NCBI RefSeq assembly: GCF_937873765.1
Contig: NZ_CALMZC010000039.1
Coordinates: forward strand, 124,001-188,000
Direction: 5' to 3'
From: an uncultured Thiothrix sp.
GTDB taxonomy: Bacteria; Pseudomonadota; Gammaproteobacteria; Thiotrichales; Thiotrichaceae
DNA: 64,000 bases
Positions 21,365-35,153 of the stretch are shown one piece after another (within the stretch, counting starts at the first letter, position 1; the number at the start of each line of letters is the position of its first letter). Under the pieces are notes generated by a model that saw only the letters and a program-made list of their open reading frames with translations, was not told the DNA's origin and did not search any database. Both the position numbers and the translations under genes were made by a program.

Positions 21365-21693
21365 AGAAATCCTCCTTGATAAGTATCAAGTACACAGCAA
21401 TTAAAATGAATTTATTGCCGAGATAAGCGAAATTTTTTCCATAAAATCAACGCCTACCAGTTAGGTTCTCTTTTTTACGGAGAGTTCTAGACAGAGACTA
21501 TATTAAGTTTCTATCGGGTTTGATCTTGGCTTATCGGTAGAGTTATCTACTTGGTTGGGGGGCAGCAACACCAAGCTAACCTTATATTACAGTATAGTAG
21601 GCAGGGTACAGACGTAGAGGTTTAGCCCATTAAAAAGCTAAAACTCTCTGATAAGCGGTAGGATAATCAGCTTATGTTGAGGAGCTAATCAGT
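21365..21693. other. Intergenic region, 329 bases
   Basis: Apart from the FNR-type box and ribosome binding site at its left end I see no gene, RNA or clear promoter. A weak inverted repeat (ATAAGC...GCTTAT) lies near 21652-21676, just downstream of recN, and could be part of its 3' end. Confidence 0.4.
21376..21389. promoter_or_regulatory. FNR/ANR-type box TTGAT-AAGT-ATCAA
   Basis: Exact match to the FNR half sites TTGAT-N4-ATCAA, part of a longer palindrome CTTGATA..TATCAAG. It lies 12-25 bases before the GTG of the 21032 gene and overlaps its Shine-Dalgarno, a position that would fit repression better than activation. Confidence 0.5.
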
Positions 21694-25493: not shown

Positions 25494-27803
25494 TTAAAAC
25501 GCTCCTGGTTGAATACCTTTTATTTGCTGACTGAGTTTGAAGATCAACTCTTCTTTAGCTATTAAGTTTTTATCTTTCATCGTCAACTGTTGATTGAGTT
25601 GTTGAATCATTTGTTCTTTCAGTTGAATCACTTTTTCCCGTTGCTCAACAAGCTGCTGATAAGGTTTAGTATCTTCAGACGTTGCTGTGCTGACTTTCTG
25701 AGCCTGCAGTTGTTCAGATATATGTTTCAAATCCACTAACACGCGTTTTTTCCAAGCTTCTTGATCGGTAGGGCGATAGGCTATCAACTGCCTTGCAAGA
25801 TCACGCAGGTATTCAACTAGTTCAGTATGGCGCTGCTGTTGTAGTTCATTAGTACCTTGTCCGAGTTGCTCGTTCAGATCTTGAAGTTGATCAAGCAGAA
25901 TCGCGAGTTTATCTTGGCCGCCTTCAATATTGCTTTGTTTGATTAGCTCACTATGCTGTTCTATCTGCCCCATAACCTGTTGTTGTTGCGCTTGAGTTTG
26001 CTGGCGTTGTTGTAAATCTTGATGATAAAGCTCAGTGAGAGCTGCAAGCTTCTCTTGATAATGAGTGTATTGTTGCTGCATTAACGCTTCAATCATTTTA
26101 GCAATCAGCTTCAACTGACGTTGTTGATCACCAATTAATTGCTGTGCTTCGGTGCGAACTTGCTCAAACGTTTGATTGATATATTGTTCAGAGCGCTCCA
26201 CTAGAGCTTGACGATGCGTTTGCTCTTGGCTCGTTAACGTATGGAAAGAAACTAACTGCTCATTGAGTTGTACCACCAATTGATTACGTTGCTGCTCTAA
26301 CTGCTGCAGTTTCACATCACGCTCTGCCAATTGATTTTCATGCGCTTGTTGTTGAGCGATTTGCTTTTTTAACTGTGCCTCTTCTTCCATCAACTGCGTG
26401 GCTAGGCTATTCAACTGCTGTTCTTTTTGCTGCAGTTGTTCGGTTTTTTGCTGCACTTCTTGAGTACGTTGTTGTAGTTTCATATCGTGTTCAACCAGCA
26501 ACTTTTTGCGTTGATCAAGTAATTCATTCAGTTGCTGAATAGTTGTATCGCGTTGGTGCAGCAGTGCGTCTTTGGTCTGTACAGTTTGTTGGATTTGGCT
26601 AAATTGTTCATGTTGTTGCTGCAAATAAGCTTGCAATTGATCAACTTGCTGCTGGTGTGTAGCCATTTGCTGTTGCTGCGAGTGAGTGCGCTGATGGATC
26701 AGCTCGAGTTGACGGACTAACTCAGCAATTTGCGTATCCCGCTTGCTTAGTTCTCGGTCACGCTCTTGCAACTGCATAAATTGAGCGCTGATTTGTGTAT
26801 CCCGCTGTGTAAGTTGTTGGCTGTGATGAGTAATCGCTTGTTCGAGCACTAGCAGTTGTTGGTCTTTTTCAATCAGCAATTTCTCGCGTTGCTCTAGCAT
26901 CTGATGGTATTGCATCGCATTTTGTTCTTTCTCATGCAAGATGCGGGTTTGCGCAAAGAGTTGTTCATTACGAATGCTGATGTGCTCGATTTTTTGCTTG
27001 ATGAGTTGATCACGTTCTTTCAGTTGCTCATCGCGTTCACGCAGCGATTCGTCGCGTTGTTGCAGTTGTTGATGGGCTTCTTGTAAATATTGATCTAATT
27101 CTAACAGTTGCTGCTGAGTTTCTTGGAGCAGGGTATCACGCAGGCTGATTTGCTCATCGCGTGCTGCAATAATTTTTTTCTGTTCATGCTGTTTGTGCTG
27201 ATAAGACAAAACCCACTGATTAACCTCATGGAGTTGACGCTCATATTCATTTAAGGAGCTGTCACGGCGGGTGATCTGTTTATCGCGATTTTCTAATTCA
27301 CGGTCGCGCTTTTCTAAATGCCGTTCTTTCTCTTCTAATAAACGGTCACGCTGCTTGATCTGTTCCTCACGTTCACGCAGAATTTTTTCACTTTGAAAGG
27401 TATTCTTTTCAACTTCGTGTAAGCGTTTTTCCAGTTCACGAATTAGTTGCTCACGCGAACGAATGGCTTCATCGCGTTCTTTAATAATCCGTTCACGTTC
27501 TACTAAGCGCTGTTCATATTGCTCAGCTTTACTTTGATAAGCCTGATCAGCCGTCTGATTTTTTTGCAGAATTTGCTCTTTACTGTGAATTTGTTGCTCA
27601 CGCAAAGCCAATGCACGCTCTAAATCTTCAATGACAGTATCGCGATTGTGTAAGCGCGTAGTAAGTTGCTTCGCTTGCTCACGTAAGCTTTGCGTTTCGT
27701 CCTGAAAACTATTAATTAAACTCAGCAGACTCTGCCGGTCTTCATTGGTCAGGAAGCGATTGCCACTGATTTTTTCTAGCAAGGCGGTGTGATCTATGCT
27801 CAT
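25494..27803 (-). CDS. Large cytoplasmic coiled-coil protein
   Basis: 769 aa, family not recognised. From about residue 35 to 480 it is almost uninterrupted coiled coil with a frequent seven-residue pattern around R/K-E-R-D-x-x-L/I (ERERIIKERDEAIRSREQLI, LRERDEQLKERDQLIKQK). It then becomes strikingly Gln-rich (QQKTEQLQQKEQQLNSLA). No signal peptide, membrane helix or nucleotide motif was found. The C-terminus has a short globular-looking stretch (DLARQLIAYRPTDQEAWKK). It is convergent with hrcA (three bases apart) and divergent from rpoH. It could be a filament or scaffold protein, but function is unknown. Confidence 0.8.
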   Translation of the reverse strand: MSIDHTALLEKISGNRFLTNEDRQSLLSLINSFQDETQSLREQAKQLTTRLHNRDTVIEDLERALALREQQIHSKEQILQKNQTADQAYQSKAEQYEQRLVERERIIKERDEAIRSREQLIRELEKRLHEVEKNTFQSEKILREREEQIKQRDRLLEEKERHLEKRDRELENRDKQITRRDSSLNEYERQLHEVNQWVLSYQHKQHEQKKIIAARDEQISLRDTLLQETQQQLLELDQYLQEAHQQLQQRDESLRERDEQLKERDQLIKQKIEHISIRNEQLFAQTRILHEKEQNAMQYHQMLEQREKLLIEKDQQLLVLEQAITHHSQQLTQRDTQISAQFMQLQERDRELSKRDTQIAELVRQLELIHQRTHSQQQQMATHQQQVDQLQAYLQQQHEQFSQIQQTVQTKDALLHQRDTTIQQLNELLDQRKKLLVEHDMKLQQRTQEVQQKTEQLQQKEQQLNSLATQLMEEEAQLKKQIAQQQAHENQLAERDVKLQQLEQQRNQLVVQLNEQLVSFHTLTSQEQTHRQALVERSEQYINQTFEQVRTEAQQLIGDQQRQLKLIAKMIEALMQQQYTHYQEKLAALTELYHQDLQQRQQTQAQQQQVMGQIEQHSELIKQSNIEGGQDKLAILLDQLQDLNEQLGQGTNELQQQRHTELVEYLRDLARQLIAYRPTDQEAWKKRVLVDLKHISEQLQAQKVSTATSEDTKPYQQLVEQREKVIQLKEQMIQQLNQQLTMKDKNLIAKEELIFKLSQQIKGIQPGAF

Positions 27804-27926: not shown

Positions 27927-27953
27927 TTAGCACTCTAAGTAGAAGAGTGCTAA
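27927..27953. promoter_or_regulatory. CIRCE operator upstream of rpoH
   Basis: Perfect inverted repeat TTAGCACTC (27927-27935), nine-base spacer, GAGTGCTAA (27945-27953): the textbook CIRCE arrangement bound by HrcA. It sits 36 bases before the rpoH ATG, in the expected 5' leader position. hrcA is encoded 2.4 kb upstream. The nearest other start is the divergent coiled-coil gene, 123 bases away. Confidence 0.9.
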
Positions 27954-27988
27954 CATACCATTTAATGATTAATAGGAGAGCAACTTAT

Positions 27989-28852
27989 ATGACACAAGCC
28001 CTAACGCTACGTGGACAGACTTTGCCTTCCCCCGTTGGAAGTTTAGAGAGTTATATCCACGCCATTCATGCCATTCCAGTATTGGAGGCTGAAGAGGAGC
28101 GTGAGTTGGCGATAAGCCTGCGCCAAGATAATAATCTTGAAGCGGCTCGGCAGTTAATTTTGCACAATTTACGCTTCGTGGTGAAAGTTGCGCGTGGTTA
28201 CAATGGCTATGGTTTACCTTTAAGTGACTTAGTCCAAGAAGGTAACGTCGGTCTCATGAAAGCTGTTAAACGCTTCGATCCTGAAATGAATGTACGCCTG
28301 ATTTCCTTTGCAGTGCATTGGATTCGTGCTGAAATTCATGAATTCATTTTGCGCAACTGGAAGATAGTTAAAGTCGCGACCACCAAAGCACAGCGTAAAC
28401 TGTTCTTTAATTTGCGCAGTAGCAAGGCACGTTTAGGTTGGTTATCGAATGACCAAGCTCAAGAGGTTGCCAATGATTTGGGGGTAAGTAAAGCTGATGT
28501 TCTCGAAATGGAACAGCGTTTAGGCTCCCAAGATGTATCTTTTGATCTATCTAATGACCATGATGAGGATGAGCGTTTTTATTCGCCAAGTCAGTACTTA
28601 GCGGCTGAATCTGCTGATCCTGCTGAAACTTTAGAAGCAGAGGAATGGGAAACCTATACCCACGATCGTTTTGAAGAAGCGCTAGCGAATTTAGATGCGC
28701 GTAGTAAAGACATCTTGGTTAGTCGTTGGTTGGCGGATGAAAAAGCCACTTTACAAGATTTAGCAGATAAATATGGAGTTTCTGCTGAGCGGATTCGTCA
28801 GCTTGAGAATGTAGCGGTGAAAAAGCTGCGTACTGCTGTTGGCGAGTTCTAA
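27989..28852 (+). CDS. rpoH: RNA polymerase heat-shock sigma factor RpoH (sigma-32)
   Basis: 287 aa from ATG 27989, with AGGAGAG eight bases upstream. A GTG at 27947 lies inside CIRCE and is rejected. Region 2 has [20 protein letters not shown] and [20 protein letters not shown]. The RpoH-specific box is present as QRKLFFNLR. Region 4 has [27 protein letters not shown]. RpoH directs transcription of heat-shock genes such as clpB in this window. The upstream CIRCE predicts HrcA repression of the sigma factor itself. A strong terminator follows. Confidence 0.97.
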
Positions 28853-28917: not shown

Positions 28918-29016
28918 TTAGCTAAAAAAAGCAACCGATAAAAAGCTAAACCACGACCAAGCAATCAGCAACCAAACCAGCAGCATGGGAATGCCAAATT
29001 CCAAATCAAGTTTCAT
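28918..29016 (-). CDS. Single-helix micro-protein A (32 aa)
   Basis: ATG at 29016, TAA at 28918-28920. The product is one hydrophobic helix: a short polar start (MKLDLE), FGIPMLL, and a tail AWSWFSFLSVAFFS. It is a clear paralogue of the next micro-protein 138 bp upstream: both contain G-[IL]-P-M, A-W-x-W-F-S-F and S-V-x-F-F-S at the same distance. The shared ends with different codons argue for a protein-coding gene. CGGAATT precedes the ATG and AGGA lies slightly further up. A palindrome TTATCA-N8-TGATAA (29041-29060) is upstream. Function unknown; an accessory subunit of a respiratory membrane complex is a possibility. Confidence 0.7.
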   Translation of the reverse strand: MKLDLEFGIPMLLVWLLIAWSWFSFLSVAFFS

Positions 29017-29092
29017 AATTCCGTGTTCCTATCATCATCGTTATCAAGGACAAATGATAAACAAAGCGACTTGATAGAACAAGCGCAAACAG

Positions 29093-29122
29093 AAAAGCCC
29101 TACTAAGTATGCTTAGTAGGGC
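29093..29122 (-). terminator. Terminator between the two micro-protein genes
   Basis: GCCCTACTAAG (29097-29107) pairs perfectly with CTTAGTAGGGC (29112-29122); read on the minus strand it is followed by TTTT (29096-29093). It ends micro-protein B, so A needs read-through or its own promoter. Confidence 0.85.
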
Positions 29123-29153
29123 AAGTGGAACTCTTTAGGTTTGGACGAAAACC

Positions 29154-29249
29154 TTAAGAGAAAAACACCACGGAGAAGAAGCTAAACCATGCCCATGCAA
29201 CTAAAGCCACGATGAGCGCCATTGGCAAACCATAATCAAAACTTAGCAT
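29154..29249 (-). CDS. Single-helix micro-protein B (31 aa)
   Basis: ATG at 29249, TAA at 29154-29156, with AGGA six bases before the start. Composition: MLSFDY, GLPMALIV, then AWAWFSFFSVVFFS. It shares the G-L/I-P-M and A-W-x-W-F-S-F...V-x-F-F-S pattern with micro-protein A. It carries its own strong terminator. Two FNR/ANR-type boxes lie 66-139 bases upstream, which suggests induction or repression by oxygen limitation. I know no matching named family. Too short for usual gene callers. Confidence 0.72.
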   Translation of the reverse strand: MLSFDYGLPMALIVALVAWAWFSFFSVVFFS

Positions 29250-29314: not shown

Positions 29315-29328
29315 TTGATATGCGTCAA
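29315..29328. promoter_or_regulatory. FNR/ANR-type box TTGAT-ATGC-GTCAA
   Basis: Matches the ANR form TTGAT-N4-[AG]TCAA exactly. It is 66 bases upstream of the micro-protein B start and 172 bases upstream of the HNH gene on the other strand, so it could control either. Confidence 0.55.
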
Positions 29329-29374: not shown

Positions 29375-29388
29375 TTGATTTATATCAG
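29375..29388. promoter_or_regulatory. Second FNR/ANR-type box TTGAT-TTAT-ATCAG
   Basis: Nine of ten half-site bases match TTGAT-N4-ATCAA. It is 60 bp from the first box. Two boxes in one 250-base intergenic region strengthen the case for a regulated divergent promoter. Confidence 0.45.
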
Positions 29389-30149: not shown

Positions 30150-33100
30150 TTAATCCACCGTCACGGTAATGACTAAGTTTACAGTCTGGCCGGTGCTTAA
30201 ATTACCTAAATCCCAAATTCCAGTCACTGGATCATAACTTCCTTGCTGTGCCAGTGGAGCAACACCTGTCTTTAAACTCACACCGCTAGGTAATTGGTCA
30301 GTAATTTTTATCTGAGTCGCTGTACTTGGGCCTTGATTCGTCGCGGTTAACTCATAGGTCAAAGTATCGCCACGCTTAGCCGTGCTCGCGCTTAAGATTT
30401 TCGTGAGCTGTACATCAACTAATTTAGGCAGAGTACATTGTTCATCAGGAAAGACATAATTCGTTGGAACGATTAAGTCTTGGCGGCTCGTATCGGTTTG
30501 ATTATGTAACCAATAAACTTCAGTGATGCTATATTGAGTTTGACCATTTGCACCTTGAGTTCTGTCTAAAATTAACTGACCTAAGGCTTTCATGGCGATT
30601 TTCTGGCTGGCTGTCCAAGCAGTGTCATCAATAGCTGTTTCAACTTTGCTATAGTCTTCATTCCAGTTGGTGTAATACCAGACTAGATTTTGTAAGAGGG
30701 TATCGAGGCTTTGCGTGGCAGTACCAAACTCGGTTTTGACACTGGCTAAGACTTCAAGATCACCTAAAGCGCTGAACAAGCGTCTTAAATGATCAATTCG
30801 CGTAGCACTCAAGCTTTGACGGTCTGAAGCATTGACTTTGAACCGATCATCCACGATTGGATCAGCGTCTTGCTTCTCTAGGCAGAAGCCAATCAGATTA
30901 AGATCACCAACTTCCACATTGTAAGCATTAGGATGATGCCAAGGGCTAGTACCATACGCAGGCATGATCGCTTGGCTGCCCATAGGAACTAACGGTGCGG
31001 TACATTGCGCATGGAATAAACCCACATCGTAACTATAGTCGGTAGCAGTCAGATTAATATCTTTAATGACAAACTGATTCGCAATTCCAGTGACTACTGC
31101 ATCTGAGTCTAATAAATCACCAGTGGTATCTGCAGGGCTTAAAACCCAGTTATTGGGAGCGGTGAATTTTAAGCAGTAACTAGTATTGACTAGGTTATTA
31201 AACTCATACCAACCCGTTTTAGTCGTCATGGTGTTAGCGATTTCAGAGCCGGTACAAGTGGCGTTGTCATAGAGTGCTACTGAGATTTGATCAATCCCCG
31301 CTTCATTTGCATCTTGGATTCCATCCATATCTTGGTCATACCAGACATAGTTGCCGAGGCTAAAATTGGGTTTAAAGCCAAAATCAAAGCCTTGGTTGTC
31401 CTTACCAGTGCTATCTGCGGTAAAATCAATGCTAGCAAGTCCGCTATTAAAGCTGGCATCATTGTCTTTGAGATCTGTGACACGATCATTGCTAGAGTCC
31501 CCCTCTGCATTTGTGCTAGTGAGTGGATAATTCACTAAATTGGCTTCATTAGGATCAATGCTCAGTGTACAACTCGCACCTGATAGTAGAACGTTGGCTG
31601 CATTGCCGCCGGCCAAATTACTGAATTGATATAAGCCGGCTTCATTTTCTGGTGTAGAGGCATTATCAGCTAAGGTAGTCGTGGTAACTGACTTAGTGCC
31701 ACATTGAAGTTTAACTTGTACTCCCGGAATTCCAGTTTCATTAGGATCTTGCAGACCATCACCGTTGGTATCTAACCAAACAAAATTACCGATAGCATTT
31801 GGCACAATCGTCACGCTCACATCATTGGCGATGACTTGTAACGACAGTTCAGGAACCCGCCCACCAAAGTTATTGGTGTAGATATCACCCGTTGAAGCTG
31901 CAGTCACTTTGCCATTAGCATCAAGGTCAGGCGTACCACCGATATTGCCTGTTGGGCTTAATTGTACTAACACTGATTTGCCGCCAGCAGCTCCTGTTAA
32001 AGCGGGTGTAGTGAAGCGCAGACCAGTAATCGATTCAGGGGTTAAAGCACCACAGCTCAGTGGAGCAAGGCTGGTGCAAGCAGTCCATGGAGTAGCGCCT
32101 GTCCCAGAAACATTACCACCAGCATATTTATTACCATTGTTCACATACATCAGATAACACAAGTCACCTGCTGCGGGAATTTTGCCTGAGGGTTGATTGC
32201 TCTCATGGCAAGGATCTTGTTGTATGCTGTTAGACGCAGCATTAGTTGCATAGAACACTTCGCTATGGCTAGCCGTGACTTTGCTTACCGCATAAATACC
32301 GTTGAATTTGCTGCTTGGGTGGCGGGTGCTCGCTAGACCACTGGAGTTTTGCCCACTACCATCATTGTTATAAGGCAAAATATCAATGAAATCGCCGCTA
32401 CTATAATCTTCTCCACCTAAGTTGGTATATACCAACTCAAACTCGAATGGTTCATTCCGCCCATGGATTGGATAATCAACGTCTTTGAAGACATCTAAGC
32501 CAAAGTTAGCCAAGATATTCAGTTGATATTTTACCTTAACAGGATCACTAGCTGTATCAGCATCACTGCCATCAACACCAATGTCTGAAGTGAGTGTGGC
32601 ATTATTGATAAAAGTACCAGTGGTTAGTTTTGGATCTACGTCTACGCTATAGCGGATCATGGGGAGTTGGTCACCCGTATTCACATCCGCAAAATCCCAT
32701 TTTAATGAGCGCAGGGCGGTATTTTCTGCTGAACTTAAACTGACGCTAGGAGTAGAGGCTAAATAGTCGGCACGATTTAACCAAGTTGTACCTCCATCCA
32801 CGGAGAATCGTTCAGAGCCAAGTACGTAATCAGTACCGACAGGTAGGCTATCCGTTAAAGTTGCCGTGGTGATACTCGGGTTCCAACTGCCGAAGACTTG
32901 AGGCTTTAGAATGAACTGTACCCGGTCACCCCCCCTTACGACTTTGAGACCGCGTGGCTCAGTGTATTTTTCCAAGGCAATGGAAGAGGGGACAATTACA
33001 ACCCGATCTGCATCGTAGCCAGCATAAGAGAAGCCTGCATTATCAGGATCAATCGAAATACCACTCATATCCTTCCAAGCACCCCAAGTACCTGTAGAGC

Positions 33101-35153
33101 CATCATTGCGAATAGCCATATAATTGGGTAAATAAGTAACTCCTGTGGTTGAGTTAGTATAGCCTGTTGCAGAGGGCTTAATCTTTAATAAATGATTGGT
33201 AATAAAGGCCATGCGGGTAGTGGTAGGGTCAAGGCTCAGCAAAAAGCTCTTATTCAGAACAGTTTGCATACGTAATTTACTAACCTTGGCTGTTCCCCCT
33301 ATTAAGGCCGGATCAGTGACCCAATCATTGGGAGCATCTGCTAATTGACTCGTCTGATTGACACCATCTAAGACGAACTTGCCATCCCCATTCACATCAT
33401 CCTCACAAGTTTCATCACGCTGTGCGAGCAAGCCGGAGTGCGGATCATCTGAATATAAGTAGGTTATTAAACCTAGTTTATCTGCACTATAAGTATTGAC
33501 TGTTGGCCCCCAACTCACAATGTTAGGGTTGTATTCGGTATGATTCCAACCGTAACCTAAATCTGTACGATTGGGTTCAGCTAGGCCAACGTATTCAAAT
33601 TGGTCGGTATCGAGTTTTTCGCATAATTGTGACCTAGCGCCATTAATAAAGCGGTAATCCCAAATATTTAGCAGTATCGGAATCGTGGCTCCCAGTGCAT
33701 ATTTCTTCGCTCCGGTTTTGCTGGGAGGCCAAGGGCCGTCAAAACCTTTAGCTGCAGTCCAGCTACCTGGGCCACTATAAATGAGTGGATAAGTTACATA
33801 ATCTGGGAAAGGCTCACCAACGCCATTGTAATTAAGTAAATTATTATTAGAGACATCTTCTGTTGATACAGGATTGAAACCAATAACTTTAGGTGTTCCA
33901 GAGGTGGAGTCGTAAACGCCTACCGAGTTAATTGTTTGTACGGTACAAGGATAGGGGGGGCAGCCTTGATGAGTCGCAATATCAGCCGGTTCGCTATACC
34001 AAACATTAAGGCGTAATTCGATTAAATTAGAATCATTATCGGGGTCACGCACATCGATATTTTTCAGATCAATGGCAATATTCGGATCATTCACCCCATC
34101 CGGTGTGAGCGTTGGCCCTAATTGATCAAGAATATGATTCACCTGTGTACAAGTCACACTAGCATTAGGGCCATGATTGCCGACTAATTCACAAGCTGGT
34201 TTTTTCGAGTCCCAAGTATAGAGGACTGCATTGGTGGACACGTTAATGGGTACACCTGAGCTAGAAGTCACTGCTTTAGTATTATTATTATTATTGTCAT
34301 CGGTATAATGATCGAGTAGCAAATAATCCTGCTCAAAATCACCGCCGGCTTCATTCGGTGCATCGGCTAGCATCGAGCCTTTTTGGTATTTAACTTTAAT
34401 GACATACTCGACGACTGAACCATTGGTAGTGCCGTCCGCCCCTTTATGTGCGGGTGCAATATACAGCGGCTTACCGGTTGCCGGATCAAGTGCAGTGACT
34501 TGTAATTCTTTAGTAGTGTCAACCCGGAAGTTAGCGGTAACGGTGACATCTGTAGGGCCAGCCGTCGCAACATTCGAGCCTTGAGCTTGAGATGAAACCG
34601 TTGCATTCACATGCTGATCATTCAGAGTAATCTCGCTGCCATCATACGAGGCTGCAATGGCTCGCGCCACTGGATAAAAAGCACGGGTCGTCCCTTCTAC
34701 AGCAGGGCCAAGATTACAAAATAGTGTCCGTTTATCTGTAGAAATACTCGAGACTGGATTCACTTCTTGCGGATCAGTTTTACAGCCTGTGGGAATCTCA
34801 ATCCAAGCTTGGCGTTTATCCAACTGTACGGTGCTAGTCAGGCTCTGCACGTCATTGTCATTGACTGAGACCTCCACCAGATAAGTGATCGAGTCTTGTA
34901 AACGCGTGACTTTATTATCTTCGCTCGCATCCATACCCGCAGTGGCTAGATTACCGTCCCAAGTCGTGCTATCAAAGGGTTCTGAGCCAGTTTTAGCCAC
35001 CGAAATAGTCGTGTTGACAACCGGAGCTGCGGTATTACCTGCCGCATAGGATCGGGGGCTGAACCCTAGGATAAGAAGAAAAGTGAGCAGCAGTGGAGCT
35101 AAAACTAAAAAACGTGCCCAAAAAGGAATACGCACAGCAAGGTTCTGATTCAT
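30150..35153 (-). CDS. Very large secreted surface protein with DUF11 and SdrD B-like domains
   Basis: 1667 aa. A long signal peptide ends near residue 38 (FSPRSYAAG). The first 1100 residues are a series of beta-rich segments with DUF11-like traits (RGGDRVQFILKPQV, TATLTDSLPVGTDYVLG). Two SdrD B-like/Cna-B-like domains begin near 1121 (IGNFVWLDTNGDGLQDPNE) and 1266 (LGNYVWYDQDMDGIQDANE), each with an Asp-rich calcium-type loop. A mostly helical insert (about 1405-1570) contains GFCLEKQ (Cys 1424) and LQNLVWYYTN (Gln 1488), reminiscent of thioester adhesin domains. A DUF11 repeat ends the protein (about 1577-1667). No autotransporter barrel, sorting signal or membrane anchor is seen. Likely an adhesin or matrix protein. 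Confidence 0.85.
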   Translation of the reverse strand: MNQNLAVRIPFWARFLVLAPLLLTFLLILGFSPRSYAAGNTAAPVVNTTISVAKTGSEPFDSTTWDGNLATAGMDASEDNKVTRLQDSITYLVEVSVNDNDVQSLTSTVQLDKRQAWIEIPTGCKTDPQEVNPVSSISTDKRTLFCNLGPAVEGTTRAFYPVARAIAASYDGSEITLNDQHVNATVSSQAQGSNVATAGPTDVTVTANFRVDTTKELQVTALDPATGKPLYIAPAHKGADGTTNGSVVEYVIKVKYQKGSMLADAPNEAGGDFEQDYLLLDHYTDDNNNNNTKAVTSSSGVPINVSTNAVLYTWDSKKPACELVGNHGPNASVTCTQVNHILDQLGPTLTPDGVNDPNIAIDLKNIDVRDPDNDSNLIELRLNVWYSEPADIATHQGCPPYPCTVQTINSVGVYDSTSGTPKVIGFNPVSTEDVSNNNLLNYNGVGEPFPDYVTYPLIYSGPGSWTAAKGFDGPWPPSKTGAKKYALGATIPILLNIWDYRFINGARSQLCEKLDTDQFEYVGLAEPNRTDLGYGWNHTEYNPNIVSWGPTVNTYSADKLGLITYLYSDDPHSGLLAQRDETCEDDVNGDGKFVLDGVNQTSQLADAPNDWVTDPALIGGTAKVSKLRMQTVLNKSFLLSLDPTTTRMAFITNHLLKIKPSATGYTNSTTGVTYLPNYMAIRNDGSTGTWGAWKDMSGISIDPDNAGFSYAGYDADRVVIVPSSIALEKYTEPRGLKVVRGGDRVQFILKPQVFGSWNPSITTATLTDSLPVGTDYVLGSERFSVDGGTTWLNRADYLASTPSVSLSSAENTALRSLKWDFADVNTGDQLPMIRYSVDVDPKLTTGTFINNATLTSDIGVDGSDADTASDPVKVKYQLNILANFGLDVFKDVDYPIHGRNEPFEFELVYTNLGGEDYSSGDFIDILPYNNDGSGQNSSGLASTRHPSSKFNGIYAVSKVTASHSEVFYATNAASNSIQQDPCHESNQPSGKIPAAGDLCYLMYVNNGNKYAGGNVSGTGATPWTACTSLAPLSCGALTPESITGLRFTTPALTGAAGGKSVLVQLSPTGNIGGTPDLDANGKVTAASTGDIYTNNFGGRVPELSLQVIANDVSVTIVPNAIGNFVWLDTNGDGLQDPNETGIPGVQVKLQCGTKSVTTTTLADNASTPENEAGLYQFSNLAGGNAANVLLSGASCTLSIDPNEANLVNYPLTSTNAEGDSSNDRVTDLKDNDASFNSGLASIDFTADSTGKDNQGFDFGFKPNFSLGNYVWYDQDMDGIQDANEAGIDQISVALYDNATCTGSEIANTMTTKTGWYEFNNLVNTSYCLKFTAPNNWVLSPADTTGDLLDSDAVVTGIANQFVIKDINLTATDYSYDVGLFHAQCTAPLVPMGSQAIMPAYGTSPWHHPNAYNVEVGDLNLIGFCLEKQDADPIVDDRFKVNASDRQSLSATRIDHLRRLFSALGDLEVLASVKTEFGTATQSLDTLLQNLVWYYTNWNEDYSKVETAIDDTAWTASQKIAMKALGQLILDRTQGANGQTQYSITEVYWLHNQTDTSRQDLIVPTNYVFPDEQCTLPKLVDVQLTKILSASTAKRGDTLTYELTATNQGPSTATQIKITDQLPSGVSLKTGVAPLAQQGSYDPVTGIWDLGNLSTGQTVNLVITVTVD

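Follow-up and report, generated by a model that had tools for sequence, protein, structure and literature searches.

Two tandem reading frames of about thirty codons, here termed A and B, lie on the minus strand of the window, a stretch of 64,000 nucleotides from an uncultured Thiothrix sp., and the question they raise is whether they encode proteins at all and, if so, which enzyme such proteins would serve. The pair is flanked by a convergent rpoH on one side and by a divergent HNH-domain gene on the other, and is laid out as follows.

29154..29249, minus strand: micro-protein A, 31 aa, MLSFDYGLPMALIVALVAWAWFSFFSVVFFS; ATG ORF with matches in relatives and across the class, under purifying selection
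29097..29122, minus strand: intrinsic terminator of A, between A and B, with 11 pairs and a loop of 4, then TTTTCTGTTT (terminator scan)
28918..29016, minus strand: micro-protein B, 32 aa, MKLDLEFGIPMLLVWLLIAWSWFSFLSVAFFS; ATG ORF, paralog of A, with orthologs in relatives and an AlphaFold2 helix
28874..28898, no strand: stem-loop AAAAGGCCGC-ATTAA-GCGGCCTTTT, between B and the convergent rpoH; read from the sequence and unreported by the terminator scan
27947..28852, plus strand: rpoH-type sigma factor gene (Pfam Sigma70_r2/r4), the convergent neighbour, listed as context and not as a functional part

A and B as protein-coding genes

The original prediction had described two related minus-strand ORFs in tandem, each with an ATG and ribosome-binding purines, and this description holds: the coordinates are confirmed, AGGA-type purines precede the ATG start of both, and a genome-wide search with B yields A as its sole significant relative (57% identity over 30 aa, E 3e-7). 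Its account of a terminator behind B was correct in that a stem-loop ends B but incomplete, in that this stem-loop is likely a terminator common to B and rpoH, and A has an 11-pair terminator of its own. Given that A ends at its own terminator and B at the stem-loop shared with rpoH, the two are probably separate transcripts. The window also encodes, beside rpoH, a repetitive coiled-coil protein of 769 aa (25494-27803), which matched no Pfam family above the cut-off and has relatives in 12 loci of the window's family (a family that includes Thiothrix, Leucothrix and Cocleimonas), as well as a surface-type repetitive protein of 1667 aa (30150-35153).

ORFs this short, with terminators on their flanks and without a family model, could in principle have arisen by chance, in a region of terminators or regulatory RNA, and yield no protein. 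We give this next to no credence, as the substitutions are those of coding sequence: over 33 independent ortholog pairs the in-frame pN/pS is 0.21 vs 1.08 and 2.50 in the other two frames, the changes by codon position number 170/86/392, and the frames stay intact across the class, almost all of them with an ATG start and most with a purine-rich stretch ahead of it. Between the window's genome (G000) and G005, gene A has 12 synonymous and 5 nonsynonymous changes and gene B 11 and 6, which bears out the earlier claim that the similarity is at the level of the protein. A and B are genuine protein-coding genes. The single helix that had been anticipated is found in the AlphaFold2 model of B, which consists of one helix spanning residues 8-31 at a mean pLDDT of 90, and together with the hydrophobic composition this makes the A/B family one of short proteins with a single predicted transmembrane helix. 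The members tried gave no NCBIfam match and no credible Pfam match, and this family of about 30 aa was found in no protein library searched.

Homologous frames in relatives, proposed originally as the check, recur in 34/57 relatives' genomes, often paired and with mostly silent changes, and a profile search detects the peptide family in 52/369 gammaproteobacterial genomes, the class-wide profile (A1) having been built from 43 members. Carriers include Thiothrix, Leucothrix, Cocleimonas and Competibacter relatives; a phylum-wide search gave no carrier outside Gammaproteobacteria among the genomes drawn, and a plasmid search with the peptide family gave no match. Copies resembling those of Thiothrix relatives and of Competibacter turned up on contigs assigned to Aquificaceae and Synechococcaceae MAGs (L283, L245), which are probably misbinned. 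Across two genera, g1 and g2, A and A share 66% identity and B and B 65%, vs 51% between A and B, with columns 11, 25 and 28 diagnostic for the A vs B orthologs; judged by these identities, the tandem pair arose through an old duplication, one that predates the g1/g2 split. A separate lineage also has tandem pairs, beside ccoS (L275, L281).

Linkage to ccoS and co-occurrence with CcoN

Outside the window's family, ccoS lies upstream of the peptide gene on the same strand in 45/49 loci, mostly at 43-150 nt as counted from the last aligned CcoS residue, and in the ccoS-linked loci the peptide gene is the last, at the 3′ end, of the ccoNOQP-ccoGHIS cluster of the cbb3 oxidase. A second, organism-named collection has ccoS adjoining the peptide gene in 37 of 58 contigs, a set that overlaps partly with the 49 loci, so that the two are not independent. 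Next in many cco-linked loci comes a convergent rpoH, then ftsX and ftsE, and a convergent rpoH within 1 kb is found in 28/49 of these loci and in 21/36 of those in the window's family, as would be expected if the gene were tied to rpoH, not to respiration, and the cco neighbourhood were a bystander. That explanation strikes us as very improbable: the peptide's co-occurrence follows CcoN, and 21 of the 45 ccoS-adjacent loci have no rpoH as immediate convergent neighbour, hence the peptide gene travels with ccoS and not with rpoH.

The window's family itself is arranged differently, with cco-adjacent peptide genes in 0/36 loci and the cco cluster elsewhere, the CcoN of the window's own genome being located at G000:C63:9454. 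There ccoS remains with cco, and the peptide gene often adjoins rpoH, its other neighbour being dxs-ispA or an HNH gene.

Co-occurrence points to the same enzyme as linkage, CcoN being present in all 52 peptide-carrying genomes of the class vs 228/369 overall (Fisher p 1e-12, kinship ignored). In a CcoN tree of 98 rows, a clade of 54 rows (support 98) contains all 31 linked loci of the tree, together with 22 rows from carriers that have the peptide elsewhere and the row of G035, which was first labelled peptide-free and has a divergent copy, MWDWTLPATIVFSLIVFGWLMFFSNFI. The 44 rows outside this clade comprise 37 without peptide, picked partly for TIGR00780 scores like those of the clade and not randomly, and seven whose genomes each have two CcoN copies, the second copies having been placed in the tree only in part and the other copy of G004 being a fragment. 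Within the window's family, G002 and G030 have neither peptide nor CcoN, G003 and G032, whose assemblies are incomplete or fragmented, have CcoN but gave no clear peptide match, and G008 and G025, with a completeness of 74% and 83%, have the peptide but gave no CcoN match. Peptide genes and CcoN genes do not go together in number, and a dependence of the one number on the other was dropped as a candidate.

The linkage to ccoS, the co-occurrence with one CcoN clade, the joint absence in G002 and G030, the pN/pS, the FNR-like boxes described below and the helix lead us to propose, with a probability of about 0.62, that A and B are isoforms of one single-pass inner-membrane protein of about 30 residues and that this protein acts for the C-type (cbb3) haem-copper oxidase, as an accessory subunit or a stable assembly partner. 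Several observations weigh against this proposal. The genomes are not independent, the gene numbers do not match, as just mentioned, and what connects the peptide with the oxidase in the window's family is co-occurrence, similar boxes and ancestry. Moreover ccoS is an assembly gene, and linkage to it accords nearly as well with an assembly factor.

Such a factor would act transiently with CcoS/CcoI in the insertion of haem or copper into CcoN and would be absent from the finished enzyme. The position directly 3′ of ccoS agrees with it, as do four loci (L124, L139, L140, L146) in which the ccoS-peptide pair is kept with no CcoI found upstream; on the other hand the window's family keeps ccoS with cco and the peptide gene elsewhere, and the peptide has no conserved Cys or His for metal or haem. 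We regard a transient role as an unlikely explanation, albeit one to be taken seriously.

Service to another oxidase has also to be considered. In two genomes, G029 and G023, second peptide copies adjoin DUF2189, CtaA and CtaB genes by Pfam (L066 5274-13190, L071 7329-11830), and two more genes near the second copy of G029 appear, from their sequence, to be CydA/CydB. These copies, and the lack of linkage to cco throughout the window's family, would suit a small membrane peptide that regulates a different respiratory enzyme, be it cytochrome bd, aa3 or a supercomplex, and whose linkage to cco is partly historical. This seems to us quite improbable, considering that the presence of the peptide follows the CcoN clade and that the cco cluster retains the peptide gene in most lineages.

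Further features were seen at these loci. A Tae4-type amidase gene (PF14113; L060 11235-12020) lies near peptide genes, in a cluster that recurs in eight loci. The ccoH of cco-linked loci (L137 12434-13261, L117 4132-4956) encodes a CcoH of about 270 aa with an extra N-terminal hydrophobic sequence ahead of the FixH domain, and in those clusters without peptide that were read, CcoH has 164-171 aa; the long CcoH could be another marker of this oxidase clade.

FNR-like boxes upstream of the peptide genes

Upstream of A, two boxes resemble the binding site of FNR/Anr.

29315..29328, no strand: FNR/Anr-like box, TTGACGCATATCAA as read on the minus strand, centred about 72 bp upstream of the ATG of A; other g1/g2 genomes keep it at -72 to -81
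29375..29388, no strand: second FNR/Anr-like box, CTGATATAAATCAA as read on the minus strand, centred about 132 bp upstream of the ATG of A, conserved at -132 to -140

Box pairs near those positions recur in G005, G022, G016, G009, G033 and G006, some of the boxes having two mismatches. FNR boxes are short, and hence only enrichment and conserved spacing were used as evidence. Defined as TTGAT-N4-ATCAA with at most one mismatch, an FNR-like box occurs in 14/44 upstream regions of peptide genes in the window's family vs 12/173 intergenic controls (p 5e-5), and 10/13 ccoN upstream regions of that family have one as well. Among the genes of the genome is one for an FNR-type regulator that has a CNNC-x5-C motif (L309), and in Rhodobacter capsulatus FnrL binds upstream of ccoN (PMC4634722). 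These boxes suggest that FNR may control gene A. A perfect FNR-like box, TTGATAAGTATCAA, was also noted elsewhere in the window (21376-21389).

The upstream boxes are conserved for A in both g1 and g2, and B is mostly without them, with the exception of the B of G005, which has a perfect box. A and B may divide labour. Put together, the duplication older than the g1/g2 split and the paired boxes conserved at A and mostly absent at B could be read as a clade-specific cbb3 subunit in two isoforms, of which A but not B would be induced by FNR at low oxygen, the small subunit being swapped with the oxygen supply. We hold this exchange of subunits to be a doubtful elaboration.

Comparison with other small oxidase proteins

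Small single-helix proteins are known from other haem-copper oxidases, and the references used here, CcoM and CoxIIa, were confirmed by full-length PDB matches (5DJQ chain N and 1XME chain C). CcoM of Pseudomonas stutzeri stabilises the cbb3 oxidase or its assembly (PMC8267372, PMC10433244). With its 36 aa it resembles A and B in being a tiny single-helix protein and it associates with a C-type oxidase; unlike CcoM, the A/B peptides are encoded after ccoS and carry an N-terminal Pro, some 12 residues ahead of a Trp, and a conserved W-x-S-F-x-S-V stretch. Homology of the two was rejected, as a profile search of the PDB sequences misses 5DJQ, although the chain is present, and the hhalign probability is 0.2%.

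Subunit IIa (CoxIIa, PF08113) of the B-type ba3 oxidases, of 34 aa in Thermus, is likewise a single helix of similar length and an oxidase subunit that is sometimes unannotated. Read from the sequences, its Trp stands about 11 residues from the C-terminus, compared with about 10 in the A/B family, and we treat this apparently shared ending as a lead only. CoxIIa is characterised by a P-x(1-3)-G-T/A motif and by a distance of about 18 residues from the Pro to the Trp, as counted from Pro12 and Trp30 (PMC3128077), whereas the consensus of the A/B family has neither P-x-G-T/A nor this spacing, its Pro and Trp being about 12 residues apart. The enzyme also differs in class, C-type, as proposed here, for A/B and B-type for subunit IIa. 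Homology of A/B to CoxIIa was rejected too: with the E threshold set at 10, none of 63 members matched PF08113, the hhalign probability is 0.6%, and a PF08113 search of the genome gave nothing at the peptide loci and nothing over the cut-off. CcoQ, CcoH and CcoS are, like A/B, small or membrane proteins of the cco cluster, but they are separate genes that coexist with the peptide gene in the same clusters. By analogy, the best reading is that the A/B family works like CcoM or subunit IIa and belongs to neither. As an accessory component of the cbb3 oxidase, the peptide would most likely add a helix that packs against the CcoN/CcoO/CcoP core, and it would stabilise the complex or its assembly in the manner of CcoM.

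The guess of a respiratory-oxidase subunit in the original prediction is thereby supported and made more specific, in that the family tracks one clade of cbb3 oxidase. The cbb3 oxidases are high-affinity enzymes that support respiration at very low oxygen in many bacteria. Catalogues of their small subunits are poor, since annotation misses genes of about 30 codons. Since outside the window's family the gene stands at the end of the cbb3 cluster, A and B probably represent small components or helpers of this oxidase that have been overlooked, and a conserved peptide that tracks one CcoN clade across the Gammaproteobacteria is a candidate cbb3 subunit as well as a marker for that oxidase clade.
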